NCBI GenBank assembly: GCA_947442065.1 | Contig: CANEUY010000002.1 | Span: 1-48,487, forward strand | DNA from: Verrucomicrobia subdivision 6 bacterium | Lineage (GTDB): Bacteria > Verrucomicrobiota > Verrucomicrobiia > Methylacidiphilales > Verrucolacustridaceae | Length of the DNA: 48,487 bases | Reading direction: 5' to 3' | Part shown: positions 15,813 through 30,667 of the stretch, in pieces | Layout: the number at the start of each line of letters is the position of its first letter | How positions within the stretch are numbered: the stretch's first letter is position 1 | Made by a program: the position numbers and the translations under genes | Notes under the pieces: model-generated | The model's input: only the letters and a program-made list of their open reading frames with translations | Database searches by the model: none | Told to the model about the DNA's origin: nothing

Positions 15813-16861
15813 GCCACCCCCAGGGGTTGAATTCGCTGAATGAAAGAGCTCCGCGCCATATCTCCTGAGTCGCGACTGACCGTTCGATATGATGCCAAGC
15901 CCAACAGCCAACCTGTTAGGGTTAATCCTGCCCCGACCAAAACATGCAGAGTGGCCAACTCAGGCAAACGACCGCTCCAGATGATGGAAACCCCCAAAAG
16001 CACCTGTGTTAAGGCCAGAAGAACCAAAAAAACGACTCCCCGCTTCCACCATGAGGGCGTCGAAGATGAGCGAACACTCCAAACAGCCCCCCCCAAGATG
16101 CCGACCGCTGCAAGAATCCCCAAGGAACGATGCAAGATTTGGCCAAGGATCAGGACCGGGGTTGTCGCGGGCCATTGAAGCTTTTCGGCACGAAACTGGT
16201 TGATATGCGAAAGAGTCACGGAATCCCAAAAGGGTGGAAACCATTCGCCATAGACTTTTGGAAAGTCGGGAACAGAAAGAAAGCCAGGCCCTCCATGCCT
16301 CATCCACGCGCCAAGCACGGTCTGCAGAAAAACAACCCCTGTAAAAAACCAGATCATCCGGCTCCGGTTCAATGCATGGTCATCCCCTTTCCCGGGATTT
16401 CCCCAAAAATTGGAAAGGACCAATGCCAGACTTCCGGCCGTCAGTAAAAAAAGCTGGGCCAAACACCCGTGAAGGAGCCCAAGGATCCAGGAAGCTTGAA
16501 TCACCCGTTGCCCCCCCAAAATCCCCTGCAAAACAACCAGAAGGGATGCAGCGAAGGCAAGCCGTCGAGGCAAGCCAGAAGGCTGGATCATCCATACGAG
16601 AACAGAAACGGCTAGAGTGATCAGTCCTACGCCAGATGCCACCAGTCGGTGAGAGTGCTCAAGAAAAACCATAGTGGAAGCCGTCATCTTGGACCACGGA
16701 TAAATGAACATGTTGTGCCCGAAAGTGGACGGCCAATCCGGGACAGCCATGCCGGCCACTTTTGTTGTAACCTGCCCTCCCAAAGTAATCAGAAAGAGTA
16801 TCGACCCGACAAGGAAGCAGGCCGCCCGAAAATCAGGTCGCAACGCCAGTCGGGAAGTCAT
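15809..16861 (-). CDS. ctaA: Haem A synthase (COX15/CtaA family)
   Basis: CtaA oxidises the C8 methyl of haem O to give haem A. The 350-residue protein has eight predicted helices and the conserved haem-binding histidines in LEHSHRLVAS near residue 70, LLHGCLAQ near 130, TLSHINQFRAEK near 215 and LHRSLGILA near 245. The opening segment GGQVTTKVAGMAVPDWPSTFG matches the family. Start and stop each overlap neighbouring genes by four bases (coxA and ctaB), so the three genes are translationally coupled. Confidence 0.93.
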   Translation of the reverse strand: MTSRLALRPDFRAACFLVGSILFLITLGGQVTTKVAGMAVPDWPSTFGHNMFIYPWSKMTASTMVFLEHSHRLVASGVGLITLAVSVLVWMIQPSGLPRRLAFAASLLVVLQGILGGQRVIQASWILGLLHGCLAQLFLLTAGSLALVLSNFWGNPGKGDDHALNRSRMIWFFTGVVFLQTVLGAWMRHGGPGFLSVPDFPKVYGEWFPPFWDSVTLSHINQFRAEKLQWPATTPVLILGQILHRSLGILAAVGILGGAVWSVRSSSTPSWWKRGVVFLVLLALTQVLLGVSIIWSGRLPELATLHVLVGAGLTLTGWLLGLASYRTVSRDSGDMARSSFIQRIQPLGVA

Positions 16862-18633
16862 CCCGTCGGAACCGATCGTCGCGCCGGTGCCGCACCATGC
16901 ACCGATTCCGATGTCGGAGGTTCATTCTGCATGATGAAATCCCGGGGATGTCCGGGAACGCTGTAATCGTAGGCACCCCGATAAACGGTGGGGGTTACGG
17001 CAAAATTCCCGTGCCCGGGAGGTGAAGCCACAGTCCATTCCAAGGTGGTGCCCTCCCATGGATTGTTCCCCGCCGGAGCACCATGCTTCAGGCTACGGAA
17101 AAAATTCCAAAGGAAGATTAACTGGGAAAAACCGAGACCAATTGCCGCCAGGGTGATGAACTGGTTGATCGGTTGAAGAGCTCGTAGATGTTCATAGGCG
17201 GTTGGGTCAGCGATTCTTCGCATCATGCCTCCAAGGCCCACATTATGCATGGGAAAGAAACACAGGTTAAAAAAGACGAAGGTCAGGACAAAATGAATTT
17301 TCCCAAGAGTCTCGTCGAGCATCCGTCCAAACATCTTCGGGTACCACGTGTAGATCGATGCAAAGATGGCAAAGATACTTCCCCCAAAGAGGACGTAGTG
17401 AAAATGCGCCACAATGAAATAAGTGTGGTGGACAAAGATATTTACCGGCGTGGAAGCCATAAAGATTCCGGAGAATCCGCCGATCACAAACATCGCAACG
17501 AACGCCAAGGCATTGAGCATGGCGGAAGTAAATCGGATGGAGCCTCCCCAGATCGTACCGAGCCAGTTAAACGTCTTGATCGCAGAAGGCACGGCTATCA
17601 CCATCGTGGATACACCGAAGGCGGCCGAAAGGACCAAGTTCATTCCCGAAACGAACATGTGGTGCCCCCAGACGATAAATCCAAGAAAACCAATGGCGAA
17701 CATCGCAAAAACCATCGCTTTATAACCAAAGACGGGTTTGCGACTAAAAATACTGAGCACGTCGCTGGCCATACCCATGGCAGGGAGGATCAGGATATAC
17801 ACCTCGGGATGGCCGAAAAACCAAAACAGATGCTGCCACAACAAGGGCTGCCCCCCCTTGGCCGGATTAAAGAAGCTGGTGCCAAAATTCAGATCAAGAA
17901 TCAACATGGCCCCGGCGGCGGAAAGAACAGGAACGGCCAAAAGAAGCAGAAAAGCCGTGATAAAAAGCGCCCAAATCGTGAGAGGAAGCCTGAAAAATCC
18001 CATTCCCGGCGCCCGCATGTTCACGACTGTGGTGATATAATTGAAAGCACCCATGATGGAAGCGAGTCCGTTGATGAAAATCCCCGCCGCCCATAGCGTT
18101 TGCCCCAGCTTGGTTCCATTGTAGGCGGCGACGCTACTGAGGGGCGCATAAGAGGTCCATCCCCCTGCAGCTGCCCCACCTGCAACAAAAAAGCCGGCCA
18201 GCATGACCAGTCCGGAAAGCAAATAAACCCAGTACGATAACTCATTGACCAAAGGGAAAGCCATATCCCCTGCCCCAATTTTGAGCGGGATGAGGTAGTT
18301 ACCAAAGGCTCCAATCAGCAACGGCATGACCACCAAAAATACCATCACGGTGGCATGCATCGTAAAAAGAGCGTTATAAAACTGGGGATTGATGAAAGGA
18401 AGGGAGATGGGGTTCCCCACATCCCCGCTCGGCATCACCTGAGTCGAGGGGTAAGCCAACTGCCAGCGAAGCAAAAGAGCCATGCCTCCACCGATAAAAA
18501 GAAAAGCCAAGGAGGTGAAGAGATACTGCAAACCGATGATCTTATGATCCAGCGACCACAGATACTTCTTCCAACCGGAGGGTTCTTCATGCCCATGGAC
18601 GTGAGTTGCTGAATGTACGGTTGCGGTGCTCAT
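16858..18633 (-). CDS. coxA: Cytochrome c oxidase subunit I (aa3 type)
   Basis: CoxA is the catalytic subunit that reduces oxygen at haem a3/CuB. The 591-residue product has twelve helices and every expected ligand: FTMHATVMV (haem a), FFGHPEVYILILP (CuB His and the proton-path Glu), VWGHHMFVSG (CuB pair) and VAHFHYVLFGG (haem a3 and haem a). FGYKAM supplies the K-channel Lys, and GAGDMAFP supplies the D-channel Asp, so it is an A1-type oxidase. A strong ribosome site (AAGGAGGA, 6-base spacing) precedes the ATG. It follows coxB by 12 bases and overlaps ctaA by four. Confidence 0.97.
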   Translation of the reverse strand: MSTATVHSATHVHGHEEPSGWKKYLWSLDHKIIGLQYLFTSLAFLFIGGGMALLLRWQLAYPSTQVMPSGDVGNPISLPFINPQFYNALFTMHATVMVFLVVMPLLIGAFGNYLIPLKIGAGDMAFPLVNELSYWVYLLSGLVMLAGFFVAGGAAAGGWTSYAPLSSVAAYNGTKLGQTLWAAGIFINGLASIMGAFNYITTVVNMRAPGMGFFRLPLTIWALFITAFLLLLAVPVLSAAGAMLILDLNFGTSFFNPAKGGQPLLWQHLFWFFGHPEVYILILPAMGMASDVLSIFSRKPVFGYKAMVFAMFAIGFLGFIVWGHHMFVSGMNLVLSAAFGVSTMVIAVPSAIKTFNWLGTIWGGSIRFTSAMLNALAFVAMFVIGGFSGIFMASTPVNIFVHHTYFIVAHFHYVLFGGSIFAIFASIYTWYPKMFGRMLDETLGKIHFVLTFVFFNLCFFPMHNVGLGGMMRRIADPTAYEHLRALQPINQFITLAAIGLGFSQLIFLWNFFRSLKHGAPAGNNPWEGTTLEWTVASPPGHGNFAVTPTVYRGAYDYSVPGHPRDFIMQNEPPTSESVHGAAPARRSVPTG

Positions 18634-18645
18634 GACAATTCCTCC

Positions 18646-19512
18646 TTAACGATCCGCCATCACCACAGGAACCGTGGAGGTCTCTTTGGCGGCGGTGGGT
18701 TGGGGTGCCTTTCCCTTGGCCCAAGTCTCATATTCTCCTTGAGGCACAACGGAAAGTTTTCCAAACATTTTGTAGTGGCCCTGACCGCAGAGTTGGTTAC
18801 AGGCCAGCTGAAATTGCCCAGTCTGCTCTGCCTTAAGCCAAACAAAGTCGTAAATCCGGCCGGGCACCATGTCCTGATACAGTCTGAATTCAGGAACGTA
18901 AAAGGCATGGATCACATCCTTGGAGCCGAGATAAAGACGGATGGGCCGGTCGACCGGGAACACAAGTTCGCCATAGGTCGTGAAATCATCCAGGCCCGCA
19001 GGATCAGCCGCATCGACTCCAAAGGGATTTTCCTTGGTGACGCTGGAGGCGGTCATTTTCGCAAGCTTACCGTCGGCTCCGGGGTAACGGACATTCCATC
19101 CAAACTGCTCTCCAATCACCGCCACAGGCAAGGCATCGGCGGGAGGAGTTTTTAGACGCATCTGGGTCCACTGCTCGTTCCCATAAATGGCCAAAGCCAG
19201 AAAAATGAACACAGGAATTCCCGTCCAGATGACCTCCAAGGTGTTGTTGCCATGACTATGGACAGCGGTAACACCCGGCCGAGCCCGGTATTTCACAATG
19301 AAGTAAATCATCACGGAAAAAACAGCCACAGCCGTTACTCCAGTCAGAATGAGGATCACATAGAAGATAAAGTCGATTTCATGGCCGAACATGGTCACGT
19401 TCCGGGGCAACCACCAGACACTTGTCTGTCGGATTTCAGCGTGGGCGGTCGATAGCAACCCCATCCCCATGCCCAAAAAGAACAAGGTTCGATGACGGAT
19501 CAGATTCAACAT
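18646..19512 (-). CDS. coxB: Cytochrome c oxidase subunit II
   Basis: CoxB accepts electrons from a cytochrome c or directly from ACIII and passes them through CuA to subunit I. The product is about 288 residues. An N-terminal signal-like segment is followed by two helices (near residues 40-70 and 85-105). The periplasmic cupredoxin domain has DVIHAFYVPEF and CNQLCGQGHYKM, giving the CuA ligands (His, two Cys, His, Met), with Gln in place of the usual Glu between the cysteines. No haem c domain is fused, so it is aa3 rather than caa3. An upstream TTG at 19527 is possible, but the ATG at 19512 is preferred. It is first in the cox operon and divergent from actA. Confidence 0.94.
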   Translation of the reverse strand: MLNLIRHRTLFFLGMGMGLLSTAHAEIRQTSVWWLPRNVTMFGHEIDFIFYVILILTGVTAVAVFSVMIYFIVKYRARPGVTAVHSHGNNTLEVIWTGIPVFIFLALAIYGNEQWTQMRLKTPPADALPVAVIGEQFGWNVRYPGADGKLAKMTASSVTKENPFGVDAADPAGLDDFTTYGELVFPVDRPIRLYLGSKDVIHAFYVPEFRLYQDMVPGRIYDFVWLKAEQTGQFQLACNQLCGQGHYKMFGKLSVVPQGEYETWAKGKAPQPTAAKETSTVPVVMADR

Positions 19513-19773
19513 CACCCTAGTGTCCAATGCTTTTGGAGGATTTCAACCCCATAGCTCATTCCGCAGACTTCCTCCGGTGAGGGAAAACCACAGTTTCCTG
19601 ATGTTCAGAGGGAAAATCCATATGTTAAGAAAACTAATGACTACCCCCCTACCCTTAATACTTCTAATGCTTTCTTGAAGCCACTGCCGGAAATCTCCAA
19701 TTTCAAAATCCAACTTAAACAAAAGATAACCTGCCCTATTTTTATCCCATTTTATCCATCCCCTCTTTAACTC
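19513..19773. other. Divergent control region between cox operon and ACIII operon
   Basis: This 261-base region must hold the promoters of both respiratory operons. It contains a C-rich stretch (about 19643-19656) and, just before actA, two tandem TTTTATCC segments (about 19740-19758). Neither a clear -35/-10 pair nor a strong palindrome is visible. No gene is seen. actA lacks a Shine-Dalgarno sequence. Confidence 0.4.
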
Positions 19774-20427
19774 ATGGCCAATATTTTCCCCCGCTACACC
19801 AACTGGTTGCCCATCAAGATCCTTGTCTGTTTGGCAGTGGTGGCGGCTAGCGTCGTTTCCGGGATGGCCTACTACTTCACTCCAAAATACACCCGGGTGG
19901 GATACCAGCCCACCCAGCCCGTCGCTTTTGATCACTCCCTCCACGTGAATCAGCTAGGCATGGATTGCCGTTACTGCCATACGGGAGTGGAAAAATCCTC
20001 CCATTCGAATATTCCCGCCACCCAGACCTGTATGAACTGCCACACGCAAATCAAATCCCTCAGTCCAAAACTTGCCGCCGTTCGGGAGTCTTGGAAATCC
20101 GGCAACCCGGTTCCTTGGGTCCGCATTCACAAGGCCCCGGACTACGTTTATTTCAACCACGCCGTTCATGTGAACCGGGGGGTCAGCTGCGTGGCCTGTC
20201 ATGGTCATGTGAACCACATGGAGGTCGTCTACCACGCCAAACCTCACAGCATGGGATGGTGCCTGGAGTGCCACCGGGCTCCGGAAAATCATCTCCGCCC
20301 ACTCGATCAAATCACGAATCTCGATTGGGAACCTCCAGCTGATACCACCCAGCGGGAAATCGGCGCAAAGTTTGTCAAGGAATGGAACGTCAATCCACCG
20401 GTAAGCTGCAGCGGGTGTCATCGCTAA
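19774..20427 (+). CDS. actA: Alternative complex III subunit A, pentahaem cytochrome c
   Basis: ActA is the membrane-anchored multihaem subunit of the quinol:cytochrome c oxidoreductase ACIII. The 217-residue product has one N-terminal transmembrane helix (about residues 13-34) and five CXXCH haem sites: CRYCH, CMNCH, CVACH, CLECH and CSGCH. FDHSLHVNQLGMDCRYCH and YFNHAVHVNRGVSC supply distal His ligands, as in the class III-like fold. It is the first gene of the act operon, four bases before actB, and divergent from coxB. Confidence 0.93.
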   Translation: MANIFPRYTNWLPIKILVCLAVVAASVVSGMAYYFTPKYTRVGYQPTQPVAFDHSLHVNQLGMDCRYCHTGVEKSSHSNIPATQTCMNCHTQIKSLSPKLAAVRESWKSGNPVPWVRIHKAPDYVYFNHAVHVNRGVSCVACHGHVNHMEVVYHAKPHSMGWCLECHRAPENHLRPLDQITNLDWEPPADTTQREIGAKFVKEWNVNPPVSCSGCHR

Positions 20428-20431
20428 AAAA

Positions 20432-23400
20432 ATGAAACGCATCCTTCATCATCCCGAATCGAATGCAAACGGCCGCACCTACTGGCGTAGCCTGGGAGAA
20501 TATTCGCGCACCCCCGACTTCGAAGAGTGGCTCCACCGGGAATTCCCCGCGGGGGCTGCTGAATGGGAGAATGATCCTCTTTCTCGTCGGAGCTTCCTCC
20601 GCCTGATGGGGGCTTCGCTGGCGCTGGCGGGACTAAGCCTGACCGGTTGCCGCCGCCCGGAAGCCCATCTCGTGCCCTTCACGCAATCTCCCGAGTGGGT
20701 CGTTCCGGGGAAAAAGATGTCCTTCGCAACGGCACAACCTCGTCGCCGCGGCTCGATTCCTCTTTTGGCTACAACGTTCGACGGTCGGCCCGTGAAGATG
20801 GAAGGAAATCCACTCCACTCCGTCAGCCAAGGTGCGAGCGATAATCACGCTCAGGCGTCGATACTAGATCTTTACGACCCTTCTCGTCGCCAATTCATCA
20901 CCCGCCGTGGCCAGAAAGCCTCTGCCCAAGCGACCGAAGAAGAACTTCAAACAGAAATCAACCGTATCCGCACGGAATCGGCCTCCACCGCAGGGGCTTC
21001 CTTGGCGATATTGGCCGATGAAACTCTTTCCCCTACCCGGGAAAGGCTTCGCACCGAACTCCAGCGTCAATTTCCCCAAGCGACTTGGGCCACGTACGAA
21101 CCCCTAGCCCCAGGGCGCGACCTGGAGGCTTCCGCCTTGGTTTTCGGAGCCAACACTGAATTCCGCCCGAACCTTTCCGCTGCCTCAACTATCCTGTCCG
21201 TGGATTGTGATTTTCTCGGATCGGATGAAGGAGATCTTATCGATACGCGGGGCTTTGCGTCGGGACGGCGGACACGCAATCCGGGCGACAAAATGAACCG
21301 ACTTTATGTCGTCGAACCAAGATTTTCCCTGACAGGAACCATGGCCGACCATCGACTCTCGCTCCGGGCAGGTGCCGCGAGCGCCTTCCTTCTCGAACTG
21401 GCGCGACAGATCCGGGCCATTCGTCCTAGCGCGGAACTCAACAACATCCTCTCTCAGGCTCCCGACCTCCCTCTGCCTTCCGGAATTGATCCTGCGTGGA
21501 TTCGTGAATGTGCCGCTGATTTGGTAACCAACGGTAGCCATTCCCTCATCCTGGTTGGTCGCCGTCATTCCGTCGGTCTCCAGGCTCTGGCTCTTGCCCT
21601 GAACTCTTCTCTTGGATCGATCGGGACAACTCTTTTCGTTCAACCAAGATTAAGCGCGACTTCTTCTTCCATTGACTCACTCGCCCAAAAGATCCGTGGT
21701 GGATCCATCCGGACTCTGGTGATTCTTGGGGGAGACCCGGCTTATAATGCCCCGACCGATCTCGATTGGTCTGGATTGCAGTCTTCCGTCGAAACATCCA
21801 TCCACCTCTCCCCTGTTTTTAACGCGACTTCAGCTCGGTCGACTTGGTTCGTTCCGGGGACCCATTATCTCGAATCCTGGGGGGACACCCTTGCAAGGGA
21901 TGGCTCCTATCTTTCCATTCAACCGGCGATCCAACCTCTCTGGGCGGGCGAAAGCCAACTGGATTTCCTTTCTCGTCTTGCCGGCCGTCCCAAGCCGGTC
22001 GGACCGGCTTTGATTCGCGAGACCTTCGCGACCAAGACAAATCTGGGCGGAGAAAAACTCGATCAGGCGTGGAACGATTTCGTTCGGGAAGGATTTTTAC
22101 CTTCCCCGACAACTACATCCTCGATCCGCACGGGCAATCTAGCCCCCGTGGCCGGTCTGCTTTCACAAATGGAGGCCGCTTCACACGAAGAGCATGGATC
22201 CTTGGAGGCCGTCTTCATTCATTCCAGTGCCGTGGATGATGGTCGCTACGCCAACAACGGTTGGATGCAGGAATGGCCAGACCCCATGACCAAACTCACT
22301 TGGGATAATGCCATTCTTCTTTCCAAGCAGACCGCTGAATCCCTGAACCTGAAAAACGAAATCATTAAAGGAATCCTCGTCGCCGACGTGGTCCAAGCCA
22401 CCCTGGCCGGACAAACGGTCGAGGCTCCCGTAGTCATTGCCCCGGGACATGCAAATTTTGCGGCCAGCCTCCCTCTTGGATACGGACAAGACATGCTGGG
22501 CCCGGTGGCCAAAGGATCCGGATTCAACGCCTATCGACTCCGTTCATCCAATACGGATTACCTGGGACAAGGACTCCAACTCAAGAAGACGGGCAGAACC
22601 ACCCAACTGGCCGTCACACAAGAGCATCAGGTCATGGAAGGGCGTGATCTTGTCCGTGAAGCCACAGTGGGTGAATTTAACGAAAACCCCGGATGGGCCA
22701 AAAAAGTCGGCATGGATGCCCACATCCCTCCGAATCAGACTTTTTACCCGAATCCAAAACTCGACGGCCAGCACCAGTGGGCCATGGTCGTCGATCTATC
22801 CACCTGCACTGGTTGCAACGCATGCGTCACAGCCTGCACCGCCGAAAACAATATCCCCATCGTCGGAAAAGATCAGGTCATGAAAGGTCGCGAGATGCAC
22901 TGGATCCGCGTTGATCGCTACTACACGGGCGAGCCGGAAGCCCCCGAATCAGTCTCTCAACCGGTTGCCTGCATGCAGTGCGAAAACGCCCCGTGCGAGA
23001 CCGTCTGCCCCGTCAATGCCACTGTTCATAATGAAGAAGGCCTCAATGTCATGGCTTATAACCGTTGTATCGGCACGCGCTATTGCGCCAACAACTGCCC
23101 GTACAAAGTCCGACGATTCAACTTTTTCGACTACAACCAACGGGCCCTGGATAAACTGTATTTGGGCCCGATCGCTCCGAAAGAAACCGCAGAAACCATC
23201 AAGCTGCAGAAAAATCCGAATGTCACCGTCCGGATGCGCGGTGTGATGGAAAAATGCACCTTTTGCGTCCAACGGATTGAGGAAGCAAAGATTGGCGCCC
23301 GTGTCCGAGCTCGGGATTCTGCAGACACTAGGATCCCTACCGGGACTTTGCAGACGGCCTGCCAGCAAGCCTGTCCTGCAGACGCCATCGTCTTTGGTGA

Positions 23401-23641
23401 TCTCAAAGATGAAAAGGCAGAGGTCGGCAAGCTCCGCGCCCTCCCGCAGAACTACTCTCTTCTGGAATATCTGAACGTACGCCCGCGTCTCACCTATTTG
23501 GGTCGCATCCGAAATCCCAATCCTTCCATGCCCGGAGCCAAAATGAACTACATCCCTTCCCACGGCCACGGAGAAAATCATCAAGAGGCAAAAACTGGGC
23601 ATACTCCCGCAGAGAAACACAGCGAAGAGAGTCATCCATGA
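20432..23641 (+). CDS. actB: Alternative complex III subunit B (molybdopterin-oxidoreductase-like plus iron-sulfur domain)
   Basis: ActB is the large periplasmic subunit of ACIII, a fusion of a CISM-type large domain (no functional molybdenum site is expected) and a ferredoxin-like domain. The 1069-residue product carries an internal Tat motif, [10 protein letters not shown] (residues 51-60), and a lipobox LTGC with Cys73. The C-terminal third has four cysteine clusters: [11 protein letters not shown] near 790, [15 protein letters not shown] near 849, [14 protein letters not shown] near 879, and CTFCVQRI with CQQACPADA near 940-985. These fit three 4Fe-4S centres and one 3Fe-4S centre. It ends with a His-rich tail and overlaps actC by four bases. 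Confidence 0.95.
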
Positions 23642-25092
23642 GAGCGGATAACTCCTCAGCACAAGCCGCTTTTTCCCAAGCGTCCGAATATCTGGAACGG
23701 CGCCCGCTAGTCGCCAATGACAGGCCCCTAAGCTGGATCACCGATCACGTCTGCCGAATTGTCGAGCAGCCCGCCCCTAAGTGGTGGTGGATCCTGACCA
23801 TCGTCACAGGCGGTGTTGCGACGCTGGTTCCAGCCATGCTGACCTACCTTGTGTCAACTGGAGTCGGCGTATGGGGTTTGAATGTTCCTGTTTGCTGGGC
23901 ATGGGATATCACCAACTTCGTTTTCTGGATCGGGATCGGTCACGCCGGAACCCTGATTTCCGCCATTCTTTTTCTAACACGTCAGAAATGGCGGACCTCG
24001 GTCAACCGATCGGCCGAAGCGATGACAATTTTTGCCGTGATCTGCGCCGGGATCTTTCCCGCTTTCCACGTGGGTCGGGTCTGGATGGCCTGGTTTTTGG
24101 CTCCTATCCCAAACGCCAACGCCATTTGGCAAAACTTCCGCAGTCCTCTTCTTTGGGACGTTTTTGCGGTATCGACTTACTTTACGGTATCCCTCATTTT
24201 TTGGTACTTGGGTCTTATCCCCGACCTAGCCTCTCTTCGGGATCGTGCCACGACCCGTTTCCGTCAAATGGCCTACGGTCTCCTTGCTCTGGGTTGGCGT
24301 GGATCCAACCGGCAATGGACGCATTACGAAAAGGCGTATCTCGTTCTTGCCGGAATCTCGACTCCCCTTGTGCTTTCGGTTCATAGCGTGGTGTCCTTCG
24401 ATTTTGCGACATCCATTGTTCCCGGATGGCACACAACCATCTTCCCGCCGTATTTCGTCGCTGGAGCGATCTTTGGTGGGTTTGCGATGGTCCTCACACT
24501 CCTGATCCCTTTCCGGGAAATTTACGGGCTCCATGACCTTGTCACCGACAAGCACATCGACAACATGTGCAAAATCATTCTCCTGACCGGTTCGCTCGTT
24601 GGCTACGCCTACTCGATGGAATTCTTTATCGCTTGGTACAGCGGGAACCCATTTGAAATCTACGCATTCACCAACCGGGCCTTCGGTCCCTACTGGTGGG
24701 CCTACTGGTCAATGATCACCTGCAACGTCGCCGCCCCTCAGCTCTTCTGGTTCAAATACTGCAGGCAGAACCCCTGGGTGGTGCTCGCGATTGTCATGTT
24801 CCCAAACACTGGAATGTGGTTTGAACGTTTTGTGATCATCGTCACCTCCATTCATCGGGACTTCCTCCCATCATCTTGGGGTTATTTTTCCCCGACTTGG
24901 GTCGACATCACCCTTTTCATCGGAACAATCGGACTCTTTGTCTTCTTGTTTCTTCTATTCGTCCGGTTCCTTCCGATGATTACCATGTTTGAAGTGAAGA
25001 ATGTCACCCCTCAGGCGGATCCACATTCTGACGGTTCCACCCACCATGGCACTTCCCTGGGCCACACCCAATCAGCCCAAGCCCACGCATGA
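23638..25092 (+). CDS. actC: Alternative complex III subunit C (NrfD/PsrC-like quinol-oxidising membrane subunit)
   Basis: The 484-residue protein has about ten membrane helices with the NrfD-family pattern: [23 protein letters not shown] near residue 90, [10 protein letters not shown] near 142, and [11 protein letters not shown] near 220. ActC holds the periplasmic-side quinol site that feeds the ActB clusters. The C-terminus is His- and Ser-rich. Both ends overlap the neighbouring act genes by four bases. Confidence 0.94.
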
Positions 25093-25682
25093 ACCATCCC
25101 ACCAAAACATTGCATGGCTTGGGTGCCGAGTTTTCTTCGGCAGGTGCACTCCTTCATGCTGCCCAAAAAATCCAAAGCCTCGGATTTCGGCGTTGGGATG
25201 TCTATTCCCCTTTTCCGATACACGGAATGGACCAAGCCATGAACTTCAAGCGGTCCAAGGTATCTCTTTTCTCGCTTCTGGGAGGTTGCACGGGTTTGAC
25301 GACCGGCTTTGTCCTGATTTATTACACGTCGGCCATCAACTATCCCTTGATCGTGCAGGGGAAACCCTACTTCGCCCTCGAGCCATCCCTCCCAATTTTC
25401 TTTGAGCTAACGATTCTTCTCACCGCTTTTGGAACCATCCTGGGACTACTGCTTCTCACCTTAATGCCCCGCCTTCACCATCCTGTATTTAATTGGGATC
25501 GGTTTAAAAAAGTTTCAGATGATGGTTTCTTTCTCGTTCTGGAATCAGCAGATCCCCGATTTGATGCCCAGGCCTCCAGAAAACTACTTCAGGAAATTGG
25601 CGGAGATCACGTGTCCGAGATTTATCAGGATCCCGAGGAAAATCCTCACCCTGCCCGCCCTGAATCGGAGATTACCCAGTGA
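25089..25682 (+). CDS. actD: Alternative complex III subunit D (DUF3341)
   Basis: ActD is a two-helix membrane subunit with an N-terminal cytoplasmic domain. The 197-residue product shows the family opening [20 protein letters not shown] with [16 protein letters not shown], two helices at about residues 58-80 and 98-122, and a C-terminal cytoplasmic segment with [12 protein letters not shown]. It carries no cofactor motif. ATGA overlaps occur at both ends. Confidence 0.92.
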
Positions 25683-26299
25683 AAGGCTTTATCCGGACCT
25701 TCTTGGCCCTCTTTGGAGCCCTGGGTATCGCCGTAATTGCGATTGCCGGCTTCCGTGGAGATTTTACCCGCCGAACCCCGATTGAGATTTTCCCGGATAT
25801 GGATCGCCAACCAAAATACAAATCCCAGACACCGGACACCTTTTTCCCTGAAGGCCGGGTCGACCGGATCCCACCCTACGGCACCATCCCTTTTCATGTT
25901 CAAACGGATCAACCCTATCTGCTGACGGGAAAAATGGGCAATATGTGGGGAACGGGAATTCCTGTAACGATCGACCAGAAACTTCTAGCTCGTGGACAAG
26001 AACGCTATCAGATCAATTGTCAGGTATGCCACGGCGAAACGGGGGCTGGCAACGGAATCACATCACAATACGGCCTAGTCGGGGCGGCCAGCTATCATAG
26101 CGACAAATATCGCCAGATGGCGGATGGGGAAATATTCAATACCATCACCCACGGCAAAGGACAGATGGGGCCCTATCACCATATTGACGTCAAAGATCGC
26201 TGGGCCATCGTCGCGTACATCCGGGCTTTGCAGCTCTCTCAGAATGCCCCCGCCAATCTTCTTCCGAAAGAAGCAGTCCCAACCCCAAATAAACCATGA
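25679..26299 (+). CDS. actE: Alternative complex III subunit E, monohaem cytochrome c
   Basis: The 206-residue protein has an N-terminal membrane anchor or signal segment (residues 1-22), the PDMDRQPKYKSQ motif that is common in ActE, and one haem site, CQVCHG (about residue 119). Met in GKGQMGPYHH (about residue 163) is the likely axial ligand. It carries electrons from the ActA/ActB hub toward the oxidase. Start and stop overlap actD and actF by four bases. Confidence 0.92.
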   Translation: MKGFIRTFLALFGALGIAVIAIAGFRGDFTRRTPIEIFPDMDRQPKYKSQTPDTFFPEGRVDRIPPYGTIPFHVQTDQPYLLTGKMGNMWGTGIPVTIDQKLLARGQERYQINCQVCHGETGAGNGITSQYGLVGAASYHSDKYRQMADGEIFNTITHGKGQMGPYHHIDVKDRWAIVAYIRALQLSQNAPANLLPKEAVPTPNKP

Positions 26300-27540
26300 G
26301 CCACCACCCAGCCCCTCTCCCCCCTGCTGAAAAGCTGCGGATCGAAAGACTTGGAATTCTTCCGGTTCTATTTCCTGTTATGGGGATTCTCGGTCTGTCC
26401 GGCACGTTCATCTGGGGATTCCTGGGACATCGGGATCAACTCGCATTCTCCTACCTGTTCGCTTTCGCCGTTGGATTCACCGTCTGTGCCGGAGCTCTCT
26501 TTTGGACGCTCCTACACCACGCCTTGGACGCCGATTGGTCGGTTATCGTTCGTCGCATCCTCGAATCCATCGCCTCCTGCTTCCCCGTTCTCTTAGTACT
26601 CTTTCTCCCGATTGCGTTCCTATTCCCACACGATCTGTGGCATTGGATGACGACAGATTTGGCCGAGGATCCCTTGCTCGCATGGAAACGCCCTTTCCTG
26701 AATGAGCCATTTTTCTATATCCGTTGTGCCTTCTATCTTCTCTTTTTCTCACTGGCCGGGTTGCTCTACCGAGGGCTTTCGGTCCGGCAGGACGCTGACG
26801 GCGATCCACGGCTAACCCTTCGACTCCGCCACACGGCCTATGGTTTTATTCCGCTATTTGTTCTCTGCCTCACGTTTGCCGGATTTGATTGGTTGATGGC
26901 ACTCGATCACCATTGGTACTCCACCATGTGGGGCGTCTATCTCTTCGCCGGATGCGCCCAGTCCTCCATGGCACTCCTCATTTTAATCAGTAACGGCCTT
27001 GTTCGGACCGGACATCTTAAGGGCCTTTTCACCGTGGAACACAACCACCTGATGGGGATGCTTCTTTTTGCTTTTACTGTTTTCTGGGGCTACATTTCAT
27101 TCAGTCAATATTTCCTCCAATGGTATGCAAATATTCCGGAGGAAACCTGGTTTTTCGTCTACCGGAACACGGGCACTTGGTTTTGGTATTCCATTTTTCT
27201 GGTCGTCGGACATTTCTTTGTGCCCTTCCTTCTCCTTCTCACACAGCCCGCCAAACGGACCCCTTGGCGAATCTGCACTGCGGCGGGTTGGGTCATTCTG
27301 ATGCATTTTGTGGATATTTATTGGATCATCATGCCCAACCTCCAATTACAACAATCCAGACATGCCGGGCATGTTGCAGCAACAACAGGTTTTCATCCAC
27401 ACATCCTCGACCTTCTCGCCTTGATCGGCGTTATCGGCGTTCTGGGTCATGCGTTTCTTTGGCTGTTCTCCCGAAACTCAATTTTTCCGGCTCGTGATCC
27501 CCGTTTGCGGGAAAGCCTGTCCGTGACCAACTGGTTATGA
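26296..27540 (+). CDS. actF: Alternative complex III subunit F (NrfD-like membrane subunit)
   Basis: ActF is the second PsrC/NrfD-like membrane subunit of ACIII. The 414-residue product has about ten helices. Recognisable segments include WHWMTTDLAEDPLLAWKRPF near residue 115, FDWLMALDHHWYSTMWGVYLF near 196, HNHLMGMLLFAFTVFWGYISFSQY near 250 and NTGTWFWYSIF near 288. It is thought to contribute to the proton path. ATGA overlaps occur at both ends, including with the non-canonical downstream module. Confidence 0.93.
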   Translation: MSHHPAPLPPAEKLRIERLGILPVLFPVMGILGLSGTFIWGFLGHRDQLAFSYLFAFAVGFTVCAGALFWTLLHHALDADWSVIVRRILESIASCFPVLLVLFLPIAFLFPHDLWHWMTTDLAEDPLLAWKRPFLNEPFFYIRCAFYLLFFSLAGLLYRGLSVRQDADGDPRLTLRLRHTAYGFIPLFVLCLTFAGFDWLMALDHHWYSTMWGVYLFAGCAQSSMALLILISNGLVRTGHLKGLFTVEHNHLMGMLLFAFTVFWGYISFSQYFLQWYANIPEETWFFVYRNTGTWFWYSIFLVVGHFFVPFLLLLTQPAKRTPWRICTAAGWVILMHFVDIYWIIMPNLQLQQSRHAGHVAATTGFHPHILDLLALIGVIGVLGHAFLWLFSRNSIFPARDPRLRESLSVTNWL

Positions 27541-28022
27541 GCGAATCCTCACATTCCTTAAGCCAACGCAACCATCCTTATCTCCCGGGGGTTTGGCTTG
27601 CCGTCGGGTTCCTCGGTCTGGCGAGCCTTGCCCTCCTTCTGCGCCCTTTGGGAGTCACGCCCAACACGATCACCGAGTCGGATGCAAAAGTCCGTTTAGA
27701 GAAACTTTCGAAACTCCGAGCGGAACAGGATCAATTGGCCTCCAGCTATGGCTGGGCCGATAAGGAAAAAGGCATTGCTCGTATCCCGATTGCAAAGGCG
27801 ATGGAGATGACCATCACCAGCCTACGAACGAACGCCCCTCATGCGGCCTATCCAATCACCACCATCCAACCTTCCGCCATTTCGGCAGCTGGAGCCCCTC
27901 TCTACCCCGAGATTCCGCCGGTTGAACCCGCAAAAGTTGCGGCAGCGGTTGCCGCGGATGGAGGGTCCTCATCCAAGGCTCCTGTTTTGACAAAAACCAA
28001 CCAACCGACAATCAAGCCATGA
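27537..28022 (+). CDS. Small membrane-anchored protein of the ACIII/pseudo-cbb3 module
   Basis: The 161-residue protein has one helix (about residues 20-40), then a short extracytoplasmic domain with a YGWADKEKGIARIPIAKAME motif near residue 72 and a low-complexity Ala/Pro-rich tail. Similar W-D-x-x-x-G-x-x-x-I-P-I-x-x-A-M segments occur in unnamed small proteins next to cytochrome oxidase genes in other bacteria, but I know of no assigned function. It starts inside the actF stop and ends inside the next start (four-base overlaps). It is probably an accessory subunit. Confidence 0.65.
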   Translation: MSESSHSLSQRNHPYLPGVWLAVGFLGLASLALLLRPLGVTPNTITESDAKVRLEKLSKLRAEQDQLASSYGWADKEKGIARIPIAKAMEMTITSLRTNAPHAAYPITTIQPSAISAAGAPLYPEIPPVEPAKVAAAVAADGGSSSKAPVLTKTNQPTIKP

Positions 28023-29437
28023 CCTTTCCCCTACCCTCCCAATCCAAAGCCTCCAATGCGGCAGTTGTGATGATCACAAGTTCAGCTATTTGGGGACTTC
28101 TCGCCGCGGGTCTGCAGACCCTCAGCACCATTCAACTTCTACTACCCGTACTTTCCTACTTTGCTCCAATACCCGTCTTGGACTACGGCCACCTTGCTCC
28201 GGCGGTTAGTTTTCTTCTGATCTATGGCTGGATTACCTCAGGACTTTTGGGGGTCCTCATGATTCTGGTCCCACGCTTTTCAGGAATTCCCTTTCGTTAT
28301 GGCAGACTTCTAACAGGAGGGGCCATTCTTTGGCAGGTTGGTGTTCTTTCCGGTCTTACTGGAATTCTGGGAGAGGGGGGAACCGGAATTCCTTTCCTTC
28401 CGTTTCTACGCCCTGTCACATGCATTTTTCTGGTTTCATTTCTTGTTCTCGGAACCGGAATCACTCGCGGGTTGGGGGGATCATGGAAAAGTGGTCCCCT
28501 CCTTCCCCGTCTTTATCTCTTGGGGGCATTAATCTCATTCCCCTTGGGCCTTGGCACAGCCGAATTGCTCCTACGCGGTGGAACAACCCCCGGTGCCGTC
28601 CAGATTATCGTCCAGCTCGTCTGGGCTTCGGTACTCCAACACCTTTGGCTGTCTCCGCTCGCTCTTGTTTTGCTCTTCCAACTCATCCCTGCGATGACAG
28701 GAAGGGCAACATCCAGCCTTTCTCTTGGAGTTCTTGCCTGGATCACGACCCTTGGTCTAGGTGGATGGTTATCCAATACACTCGCAAGCGAGGGTCCTCT
28801 TCCTTCTTGGCTACAAAGTGCTGGCGTGGTGGCAACCTTACTCCTGTTCGTTGCCGTTCTGGGAAACGGAATCCTCTTGCAGCCACTGCTGGAAGGAAAA
28901 ATGGAGGAAATCAAACGGAATGTGGCTCTCCGCTTTATGTCCGTGGGGGCATGGTCGTATTTGGCTGCCTATGGGTGGCTCGCCTTTTTAGCCCTTCCTG
29001 GAGTACGACAAACTACGGTCTTCACCATGACAAGCAACACGACGCAGACCCTCCTGATTTTCCTTTTTTGGGGCAGTGTCCTTTCAGGCTCTGTTTATGC
29101 CCTTCTACCTGTGGCTCGCAACATGGGTTGGCCGAGTCATCCTGCATTGACCTGGCATTTCTGGTTCACCACGATCGGGGCAGGAATGATGGTATCCGGA
29201 TACGCTCTGGCGGGAATCTTTCAGGGGTTGGCACTCAATGATCCGGGAGTTCCGATGGGAACAGTCGCAAGTTATTTGCGCCCGTTTCTAGTGGTGGTTT
29301 TGATTGGGCAGATTGTGTGGTGGGTAGGACAGATGGCTTTTTCATCTCTTCTTTTCTCGAGCCTTCTGAAACTTTTCCCCTCAACCGCTCCAATGGCTGT
29401 TTTCCCATCTGAAAATCCAGCCTCCACAACTCGTTAG
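28019..29437 (+). CDS. CcoN-like (cbb3 oxidase subunit I) protein lacking all haem and copper ligands
   Basis: The 472-residue protein has about twelve helices and aligns with CcoN of cbb3 oxidases at several places, most clearly TWHFWFTTIGAGMMVSGYAL near residue 378 followed by IFQGL. All six metal-ligand histidines are missing. The low-spin haem His after GRLRPL corresponds to Val63. The CuB His of WYGHN corresponds to Ser204, and the CuB pair HH to Ser252/Asn253. The HVH haem ligands correspond to Thr344-Leu346. Only four His remain in the protein (58, 208, 374, 380). The frame is intact and is tightly coupled to actF and the small gene upstream, so it is expressed as a protein rather than being a decayed gene. 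It cannot be an oxidase; a structural or quinone/proton-related membrane role is inferred. Confidence 0.85.
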   Translation: MTFPLPSQSKASNAAVVMITSSAIWGLLAAGLQTLSTIQLLLPVLSYFAPIPVLDYGHLAPAVSFLLIYGWITSGLLGVLMILVPRFSGIPFRYGRLLTGGAILWQVGVLSGLTGILGEGGTGIPFLPFLRPVTCIFLVSFLVLGTGITRGLGGSWKSGPLLPRLYLLGALISFPLGLGTAELLLRGGTTPGAVQIIVQLVWASVLQHLWLSPLALVLLFQLIPAMTGRATSSLSLGVLAWITTLGLGGWLSNTLASEGPLPSWLQSAGVVATLLLFVAVLGNGILLQPLLEGKMEEIKRNVALRFMSVGAWSYLAAYGWLAFLALPGVRQTTVFTMTSNTTQTLLIFLFWGSVLSGSVYALLPVARNMGWPSHPALTWHFWFTTIGAGMMVSGYALAGIFQGLALNDPGVPMGTVASYLRPFLVVVLIGQIVWWVGQMAFSSLLFSSLLKLFPSTAPMAVFPSENPASTTR

Positions 29438-29441
29438 ACTC

Positions 29442-30044
29442 ATGAAATCCACTCAAGCACTCGCCATCGTTCTTCTTTCCCTGCTCCTAACATGGGCAGG
29501 CCAAGTGGCCTTGGGCTATTTCCAGGTGGGTAAGCTTGAGCCTGTCATCAATGAAGAAACTAACCTCAGGGAACCTCCGACTCCCTCAGGCCTGGCTCAA
29601 ACTGGAGCAAGGGTTTTTGCCTCCGAAGGATGTCTTGAGTGCCATAGTCTCTCTGTACGTGGTCCGAGCGGCTCCCCTGATCTCACTCGGGGATGGGGAG
29701 AGCGCCGATCCGTTTCCCGCGACTACCTGTTTCGTGAACCGGCACTTGTCGGTTTTTCGCGAATCGGCCCCGACCTTTCCAACATCGGCAACCGGATCAA
29801 GGAGCCGAAGGACTTGATGATGCATCTCTACAATCCAAGGAATCTAAAAACAACTTCGACCTGTCCCCCTCATCCATGGCTTTTCGAGATGAAACTGGCT
29901 GGCCCAAAACATGAATCAGAATCCCTTCCTATCCCCCGGAAGGATTGGAAACAAGTGATCCCTACCTACCAAGCCAAAGCCTTGGTTGCCTACCTTCAGT
30001 CCCTCAACTTGAATTATTCACTCCCGGAAGCCCCTCTCAAATGA
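29442..30044 (+). CDS. CcoO-like membrane-anchored monohaem cytochrome c
   Basis: The 200-residue protein has an N-terminal helix (about residues 6-26) and the CcoO pattern: EGCLECHS (Cys64, Cys67, His68), then SRIGPDLSNIGNR near 106 and HLYNPRN near 128. In CcoO the next segment, ESxMPxYPWL, supplies the axial Met. Here it reads TSTCPPHPWL, so the Met is replaced by Cys141 and the Tyr by His144. A His/Cys (or His/His) haem of low potential is therefore expected. It lies four bases after the CcoN-like gene and overlaps the next cytochrome gene by four bases. Confidence 0.85.
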   Translation: MKSTQALAIVLLSLLLTWAGQVALGYFQVGKLEPVINEETNLREPPTPSGLAQTGARVFASEGCLECHSLSVRGPSGSPDLTRGWGERRSVSRDYLFREPALVGFSRIGPDLSNIGNRIKEPKDLMMHLYNPRNLKTTSTCPPHPWLFEMKLAGPKHESESLPIPRKDWKQVIPTYQAKALVAYLQSLNLNYSLPEAPLK

Positions 30045-30667
30045 ACCCACACGAAACCCCATCCCTCTCCCAAGCCCCCGCCGAACGCCATGCGCCCATC
30101 CCGGGTTGGTTGGTCGGATTAGGAGTCGTTCTTTCGTTCTGGGCCGGTGGATACCTTTTCTTTTATAGCGGTGGATTCAGGGGTGATGTGTTCGACCCCG
30201 GACAGATCACATGGGGGCCCGTCTCAACCGGGCCCGTCGCCCCACCCGACCCTAAAGTCATTGGGAAAAGGCTCTACGTAGCCAACTGCGCACAATGTCA
30301 TCAAACCAGTGGCCTTGGACAGGCAGGGGTTTACCCCCCGTTGGCCGGATCTGAGTGGGTCACGGGTTCCAAGAACAGGCTTATATCGATTCTGCATAAA
30401 GGCATAGCCGGACCGATCACCGTCAATGGAAACCTATATAATAATAACATGCCGGCTTGGGGTGACGGGGCTCCTGTAGCCCTCAAGGACGAACAAATCG
30501 CCGCGATCCTTACCTACATCCGCAGCGAATGGGGGAATAAGGCAGATGCAATTCAGTTTGCTGATGTTGCCGCCAAGCGAAAGGAAATCGCTTCCCGCAC
30601 CTCGCCCTGGAGCGAAAAAGAACTACTGGCGCTTCCCTCTGATCTTCCTCCCGCCTCAACTAAGTAA
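30041..30667 (+). CDS. Membrane-anchored monohaem cytochrome c (class I, CcoP/ActE-like)
   Basis: The 208-residue protein has one membrane helix at about residues 23-45 and one class I haem domain with CAQCH (Cys83, Cys86, His87), YPPLAGSEWV and an axial Met137 in NNNMPAWG. A GDVFDPGQITWGP segment links the helix to the haem domain. CcoP normally has two haems; this has one. It starts within the stop codon of the CcoO-like gene (ATGA), ends the plus-strand operon, and converges with the DUF2723 gene across 54 bases without a convincing terminator. Confidence 0.88.
   Translation: MNPHETPSLSQAPAERHAPIPGWLVGLGVVLSFWAGGYLFFYSGGFRGDVFDPGQITWGPVSTGPVAPPDPKVIGKRLYVANCAQCHQTSGLGQAGVYPPLAGSEWVTGSKNRLISILHKGIAGPITVNGNLYNNNMPAWGDGAPVALKDEQIAAILTYIRSEWGNKADAIQFADVAAKRKEIASRTSPWSEKELLALPSDLPPASTK

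Follow-up and report, generated by a model that had tools for sequence, protein, structure and literature searches.

A CcoO-like cytochrome encoded by a Verrucomicrobia subdivision 6 bacterium carries a cysteine in place of its axial methionine, and comparison of sequences identifies this replacement as a conserved lineage trait within a repurposed, catalytically dead oxidase module at an ACIII operon. The stretch of DNA analysed (the window, 48,487 nucleotides) belongs to a 1.33-Mb MAG of 119 contigs that is 82% complete. The cytochrome is encoded on the forward strand at 29442..30044, in an open reading frame with an ATG start and no internal stops that translates to a membrane-anchored, mono-haem cytochrome c of 200 residues. 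It matched Pfam FixO (PF02433) with E=4e-16 and 59.5 bits against a gathering cut-off of 29.6; its score against the equivalog TIGR00781 was 49.7 bits, below the cut-off of 200.65, and a homologue with a live CcoN alongside (L041) was likewise below it at 78.7 bits. The AlphaFold2 model (pLDDT 93.5) found five chains at E<=0.001 in a Foldseek search, all of them CcoO. Sequence and fold homology both place the protein in CcoO/FixO, whose hallmark axial Met (MPxYPWL) it lacks. As the sequence-only reading had noted, the ESxMPxYPWL segment of CcoO reads TSTCPPHPWL here, while the haem motif CLECH (residues 64-68) and the GPDL and NPRN segments are all intact. TSTCPPHPWL paired without gaps with ESKMPxYPWL of the solved CcoO chains 8smr_F, 3mk7_B and 9g6b_B (phmmer), so that Cys141 (codon TGT, 29862-29864) lies at the axial Met position. 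The protein thus has in common with CcoO/FixO of cbb3 oxidases (PF02433, TIGR00781; 3mk7_B, 8smr_F) the fold, an N-terminal TM anchor, a single CxxCH, the GPDL and NPRN segments and the N-O-P gene order, but differs in its axial Cys, its TIGR00781 score far below cut-off and its ligand-less CcoN partner.

The gene stands ninth in a run of forward-strand genes, most of them overlapping, that comprises ActABCDEF, a small protein, and CcoN-, CcoO- and CcoP-like genes. The ACIII gene set is complete in the window; Pfam recognises ActD, while ActA and ActF are assigned from their position and from homology to their counterparts in relatives. ActA (19774..20427), identified from its operon position, contains five CxxCH motifs but lacks a sixth-haem domain; the iron-sulfur subunit ActB (20432..23641) matched Pfam 4Fe-4S families, ActC (NrfD; 23638..25092) matched Pfam NrfD (E=2e-17), and ActD (25089..25682) matched Pfam ActD (E=1e-58). 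ActE (25679..26299) is a mono-haem cytochrome with an axial Met in 100 of 100 homologues. The membrane subunit ActF (26296..27540) had no Pfam matches at E<0.1 and was assigned by operon position; relatives have homologues in the corresponding position. ActF is followed, ahead of the CcoN-like gene, by a small protein of 161 residues with one apparent TM (27537..28022) that many relatives encode at this point of the operon; in several of the loci L051-L055 and L061 an extra CcoP-like cytochrome c replaces it. The CcoN-like gene (28019..29437) encodes a degenerate multi-TM protein of 472 residues, and the CcoP-like gene (30041..30667), whose start codon overlaps the CcoO-like stop, encodes a mono-haem cytochrome c with its axial Met intact (NNNMPAW). 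Divergently transcribed from this operon, on the reverse strand, are CoxA (16858..18633) of an aa3-type oxidase, with canonical His motifs, and CoxB (18646..19527), which has the CuA motif CNQLCGQGHYKM but lacks a cytochrome c domain. The operon order recurs throughout the class. Of 388 genomes searched across the phylum, 117 had CcoO-like matches, and scanning named genomes revealed relatives in Planctomycetota as well, e.g. Zavarzinella. Two loci (L062, L063) are stand-alone CcoO-CcoP fusions of about 340 residues with Met and no ACIII genes nearby, and two others (L121, L122) have record titles of Akkermansia muciniphila and Paceibacterota that look wrong, as the loci group with the window's own genus.

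The CcoN-like partner retains none of the residues that would bind metal. Its six His ligand positions (haem b, CuB, haem b3) read V,S,T,L,T,T (0 of 6), the cross-linked active-site Tyr is G, and the four His of the whole protein are all elsewhere. With all six haem- and copper-ligating His and the active-site Tyr lost, the protein cannot reduce O2. The CcoN fold is nevertheless present in the AlphaFold2 model (pLDDT 89.6; TM 0.86-0.88 to CcoN of 3mk7, 8smr and 9g83), and the CcoN-, CcoO- and CcoP-like genes all have a pairwise dN/dS of about 0.1 within the genus, indicating that all three are being kept. The predicted CcoN-like fold is therefore maintained under purifying selection despite total loss of the metal ligands. 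In relatives the lost ligands are replaced by different residues clade by clade.

Across relatives, CcoN-like proteins with all six His and the Tyr were found in 48 of 158 scored loci; beyond these, one locus had five ligands and seven truncated loci showed the motifs, and the remainder keep at most three His ligands. Among non-redundant loci (near-copies removed), the CcoO axial Met was present in all 46 with a live CcoN and in 43 of the 72 with a degenerate one, the other 29 having Cys (17), His (4), Lys (3), Arg (3), Ala (1) or Val (1). The difference between live and degenerate loci has a Fisher p-value of 7e-8, uncorrected for kinship. The axial residue changes about 8 to 11 times on the trees, with every non-Met form on the degenerate side; phylogenetically independent pairs linking axial change to CcoN death were too few (0-3 of 9 informative). 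The other mono-haem cytochromes of these operons served as controls: the CcoP-like protein has its axial Met in 179 of 179 readable sequences and ActE in 100 of 100. Only the subunit with the haem that would lie opposite the dead CcoN shows the ligand change. Adjacency to aa3 genes was considered as a marker of a degenerate CcoN and rejected, being too weak (21/46 versus 6/21 loci) and clade-bound.

Rooting on true CcoN suggests that the live state is ancestral. The ActC tree, built without wrongly picked or odd long-branch ORFs, required 11 changes between live and dead states, at least 8 of them forced by well-supported branches, while the CcoN tree required 3, with most degenerate forms clustering. 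Either the active site was lost repeatedly, with rapid evolution pulling the degenerate sequences together, or lineages exchanged a degenerate module. In one genome (G420, L088) the CcoN-like positions read Y,H,Y,Y,H,H and its congeners (G419, G421; L086, L087) are live, a pattern that may represent recent loss through His-to-Tyr changes. Genomes of one family of the order (f83; L100, L101, L160, L171, L174) have an ACIII-linked CcoO with His at the axial position and, away from the ACIII genes, a second degenerate pair of CcoN-like and CcoO-like (Met) genes, which is divergent from a true CcoNO fusion.

Within the genus of the window, Cys141 was observed in all 13 full-length orthologues, the window included; the other 12 are 70-79% identical to it and come from separate MAGs, which excludes an assembly error at this codon. 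The relatives that carry names are freshwater 'Verrucomicrobia subdivision 6' MAGs, in an order that appears to include Methylacidiphilum. All 13 follow the consensus S-[T/N]-C-P-[P/T]-H-P-W-L-F at the axial segment, with Cys141, Pro142, His144, Pro145 and Trp146 invariant, as is His128, while 52% of sites vary overall. The only invariant Met is the start codon. Met150, the example that the sequence-only reading gave of another Met whose consistent conservation would speak against it, is variable among the orthologues and was rejected as a ligand. Variation at residue 141, which the sequence-only reading had taken as the sign against its proposal, was found only outside the genus, where the axial residue of the wider family is Met, Cys, His, Lys, Arg, Ala or Val. 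An axial Cys is also present in a distant family (f5; L053-L055, L059-L061), where it is kept in 6 of 6 sampled genomes with the f5-type gene, and in one other MAG (L134); Cys evolved independently at this position in at least one family besides that of the window. Of 36 Cys-type loci across all clades, 33 encode no cysteines beyond the CxxC pair and the axial residue, and the three with a fourth (at 180) form one lineage. With almost all Cys-type proteins having no other free Cys, a role for Cys141 as an intraprotein disulfide partner was rejected.

One alternative is that the cysteine reflects nothing but release from constraint, being merely tolerated after the death of CcoN beside a haem that is now structural. 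The range of axial residues across degenerate clades is what such a release would produce, as is the Opitutaceae-and-relatives clade, which mixes several axial residues and has a shortened loop. The invariant Cys141, Pro142, His144, Pro145 and Trp146, among orthologues in which about half of the sites vary, do not fit it, nor do the retention of Cys in every sampled carrier genome of the second family and the low dN/dS. We consider this explanation unlikely; the conservation of Cys141 and His144 is stricter than pure release predicts, which suggests that the altered haem has some further role.

A second alternative assigns the sixth ligand to His144, giving a bis-His haem, and a different role to Cys141. 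His144 is invariant in the genus, and a bis-His haem may be accessible in this fold, as several relatives (L090-L092, L102, L139, L162, L165) carry a His at the axial position itself. In the other Cys clades (f5 and L134), however, Cys is constant whereas the third residue after it varies among His, Phe, Met and Gln, a pattern that speaks for Cys141 rather than His144 as the ligand. Met-type relatives likewise have Tyr, Phe or His at position 144, and Cys141 sits exactly at the Met position. We therefore regard His144 ligation as improbable. Cys141 is a putative sixth haem ligand, and the haem is probably of the His/Cys type with a potential well below that of CcoO. The low potential is a reasonable expectation by analogy with TsdA, in which His/Cys ligation gives -185 mV, His/Met +172 mV and engineered His/His about -100 mV (PMC6879331).

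We also considered a haem for sulfur chemistry of the SoxA or TsdA type, in which the Cys would bind a sulfur substrate and pass electrons into ACIII/aa3. SoxAX chains are found among the weak Foldseek neighbours of the CcoO-like model, but these chains (B, D) are presumably SoxX-type and not SoxA. The weak NCBIfam match is likewise to SoxX (26 bits, cut-off 61); SoxA and TsdA families were absent from the NCBIfam and Pfam matches of this ORF, and the homology runs to CcoO. The His/Cys haems of known enzymes do perform sulfur chemistry (PMC4423706, PMC6879331), and a His/Cys pair is possibly shared with these cytochromes, but no homology beyond the cytochrome c fold and no Sox genes were found. 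SoxY and SoxA had no matches in 11 genomes of the genus, where the SoxA part is weak since its control matched nowhere. This explanation is accordingly given little credence. That the module is still an oxidase or another enzyme with a rebuilt active site, as its retained fold, purifying selection and operon position might allow, is hardly credible given four His that all lie away from the ligand positions and relatives that substitute the six ligands differently in each clade.

In cbb3 oxidases the CcoO haem donates electrons to haem b of CcoN (3mk7). Because the CcoN-like partner has no haem or copper ligands, the CcoO-like haem has no haem b to feed; it lies off the path and a high potential is no longer required of it. 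The sequence-only reading had proposed a different place in the electron path, and this holds mainly because the canonical path is gone; the part that saw a retuned CcoO within a cbb3 path does not stand beside a partner without haem or copper ligands. Our main reading, to which we assign a probability of roughly 0.6, is that the ACIII-linked cbb3-type module is no longer an oxidase in this lineage, that the Cys141 haem is low-potential, and that electrons exit through His/Met haems to the aa3 oxidase.

Besides the CcoN-like gene, CoxA was the only haem-copper oxidase gene found in the 82% complete genome. Nine of nine genomes of the genus contain two genes of the haem-copper family, the aa3 CoxA with canonical His and the degenerate CcoN-like gene, and one of the nine has a cytochrome bd oxidase. 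ACIII feeds aa3 in the ACIII-aa3 supercomplex of Flavobacterium johnsoniae (PMC8552683), and is proposed to do so here. No CcoNOP-like module is described for F. johnsoniae, and its ActA has a sixth haem where that of the window has five (PMC8552683). With five haems in ActA and no haem domain in CoxB, a linking cytochrome is likely needed. The candidates are ActE and the CcoP-like protein, both with an invariant axial Met; judging from gene content, menaquinol electrons would pass through ActB/ActA to the His/Met haem of ActE and/or the CcoP-like protein and then to CuA of aa3. In F. johnsoniae, ActE is dispensable for aa3 reduction and lies off the essential path (PMC8552683). A soluble carrier encoded elsewhere may be an alternative exit, the genome being 82% complete. 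The putatively Cys-ligated haem is itself unlikely to be the main carrier from menaquinol to aa3, given the His/Cys and His/Met potentials in TsdA, and it would instead be a side-branch or a tuning or structural cofactor. The CcoN-like protein would serve as a haem-less membrane scaffold that holds the cytochromes on ACIII, a putative association to which the conservation of the operon points. A broader scenario, which we put forward as possible rather than probable, is that the ACIII of Verrucomicrobiota gained a cbb3 oxidase as a fixed neighbour whose active site was then lost more than once, the haem-less remnant staying on as a part for structure and electron wiring, with the CcoO haem recruited as a low-potential His/Cys centre (elsewhere His/His or His/Lys) that regulates or branches ACIII electron outflow.

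Methylacidiphilum and Opitutaceae have an ACIII-linked C-type oxidase, described in print as a functional high-affinity cbb3 (PMC6688271, and PMC8498564 where it cites Refojo 2010); in its operon, as in that of the window, the CcoN-, CcoO- and CcoP-like genes come after ActABCDEF. In verrucomicrobial methanotrophs the ACIII-adjacent cbb3-type oxidase has been linked to high O2 affinity (PMC6688271, PMC8498564). Six of our genomes look like Methylacidiphilum and its sister genus, an inferred identity (L045-L049, L098; G152, G042, G054, G072, G266, G409). In these, five of the six CcoN ligands are lost and the CcoO Met is kept, whereas the genus of the window has Cys. Genomes with three or four pmoA-family copies read S,E,S,H,F,V at the CcoN ligand positions and had no other CcoO match, and their other haem-copper family genes look aa3-, ba3- and NorB-like (ba3 from score class and review). 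The published ACIII-linked 'cbb3 oxidase' of Methylacidiphilum thus appears similarly degenerate. In the open literature we found no description of a ligand-less CcoN beside ACIII. In one of the six genomes (L048:10843-16533) NosD- and NosZ-like genes adjoin the module and apparently separate it from the ACIII genes, and a nos cluster beside the same kind of module is described for M. caldifontis IT6 (PMC11102522). In another (L045, G152) ActC is split between two ORFs, and a TGA interrupts the CcoO-like match, through frameshift, error or decay.

The catalytic subunit of a haem-copper oxidase has here been retained after losing every metal ligand, and the haem ligand of its neighbour has changed in linkage with that loss, which makes the CcoN/CcoO pair a natural experiment on the purpose of the axial Met. 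The explanation of O2 affinity offered for Methylacidiphilum (PMC6688271) is at odds with corresponding genes that lack most of the haem and copper ligands. Annotation pipelines and trait surveys that take CcoN and CcoO as evidence of microaerobic respiration could be misled across much of Verrucomicrobiota.
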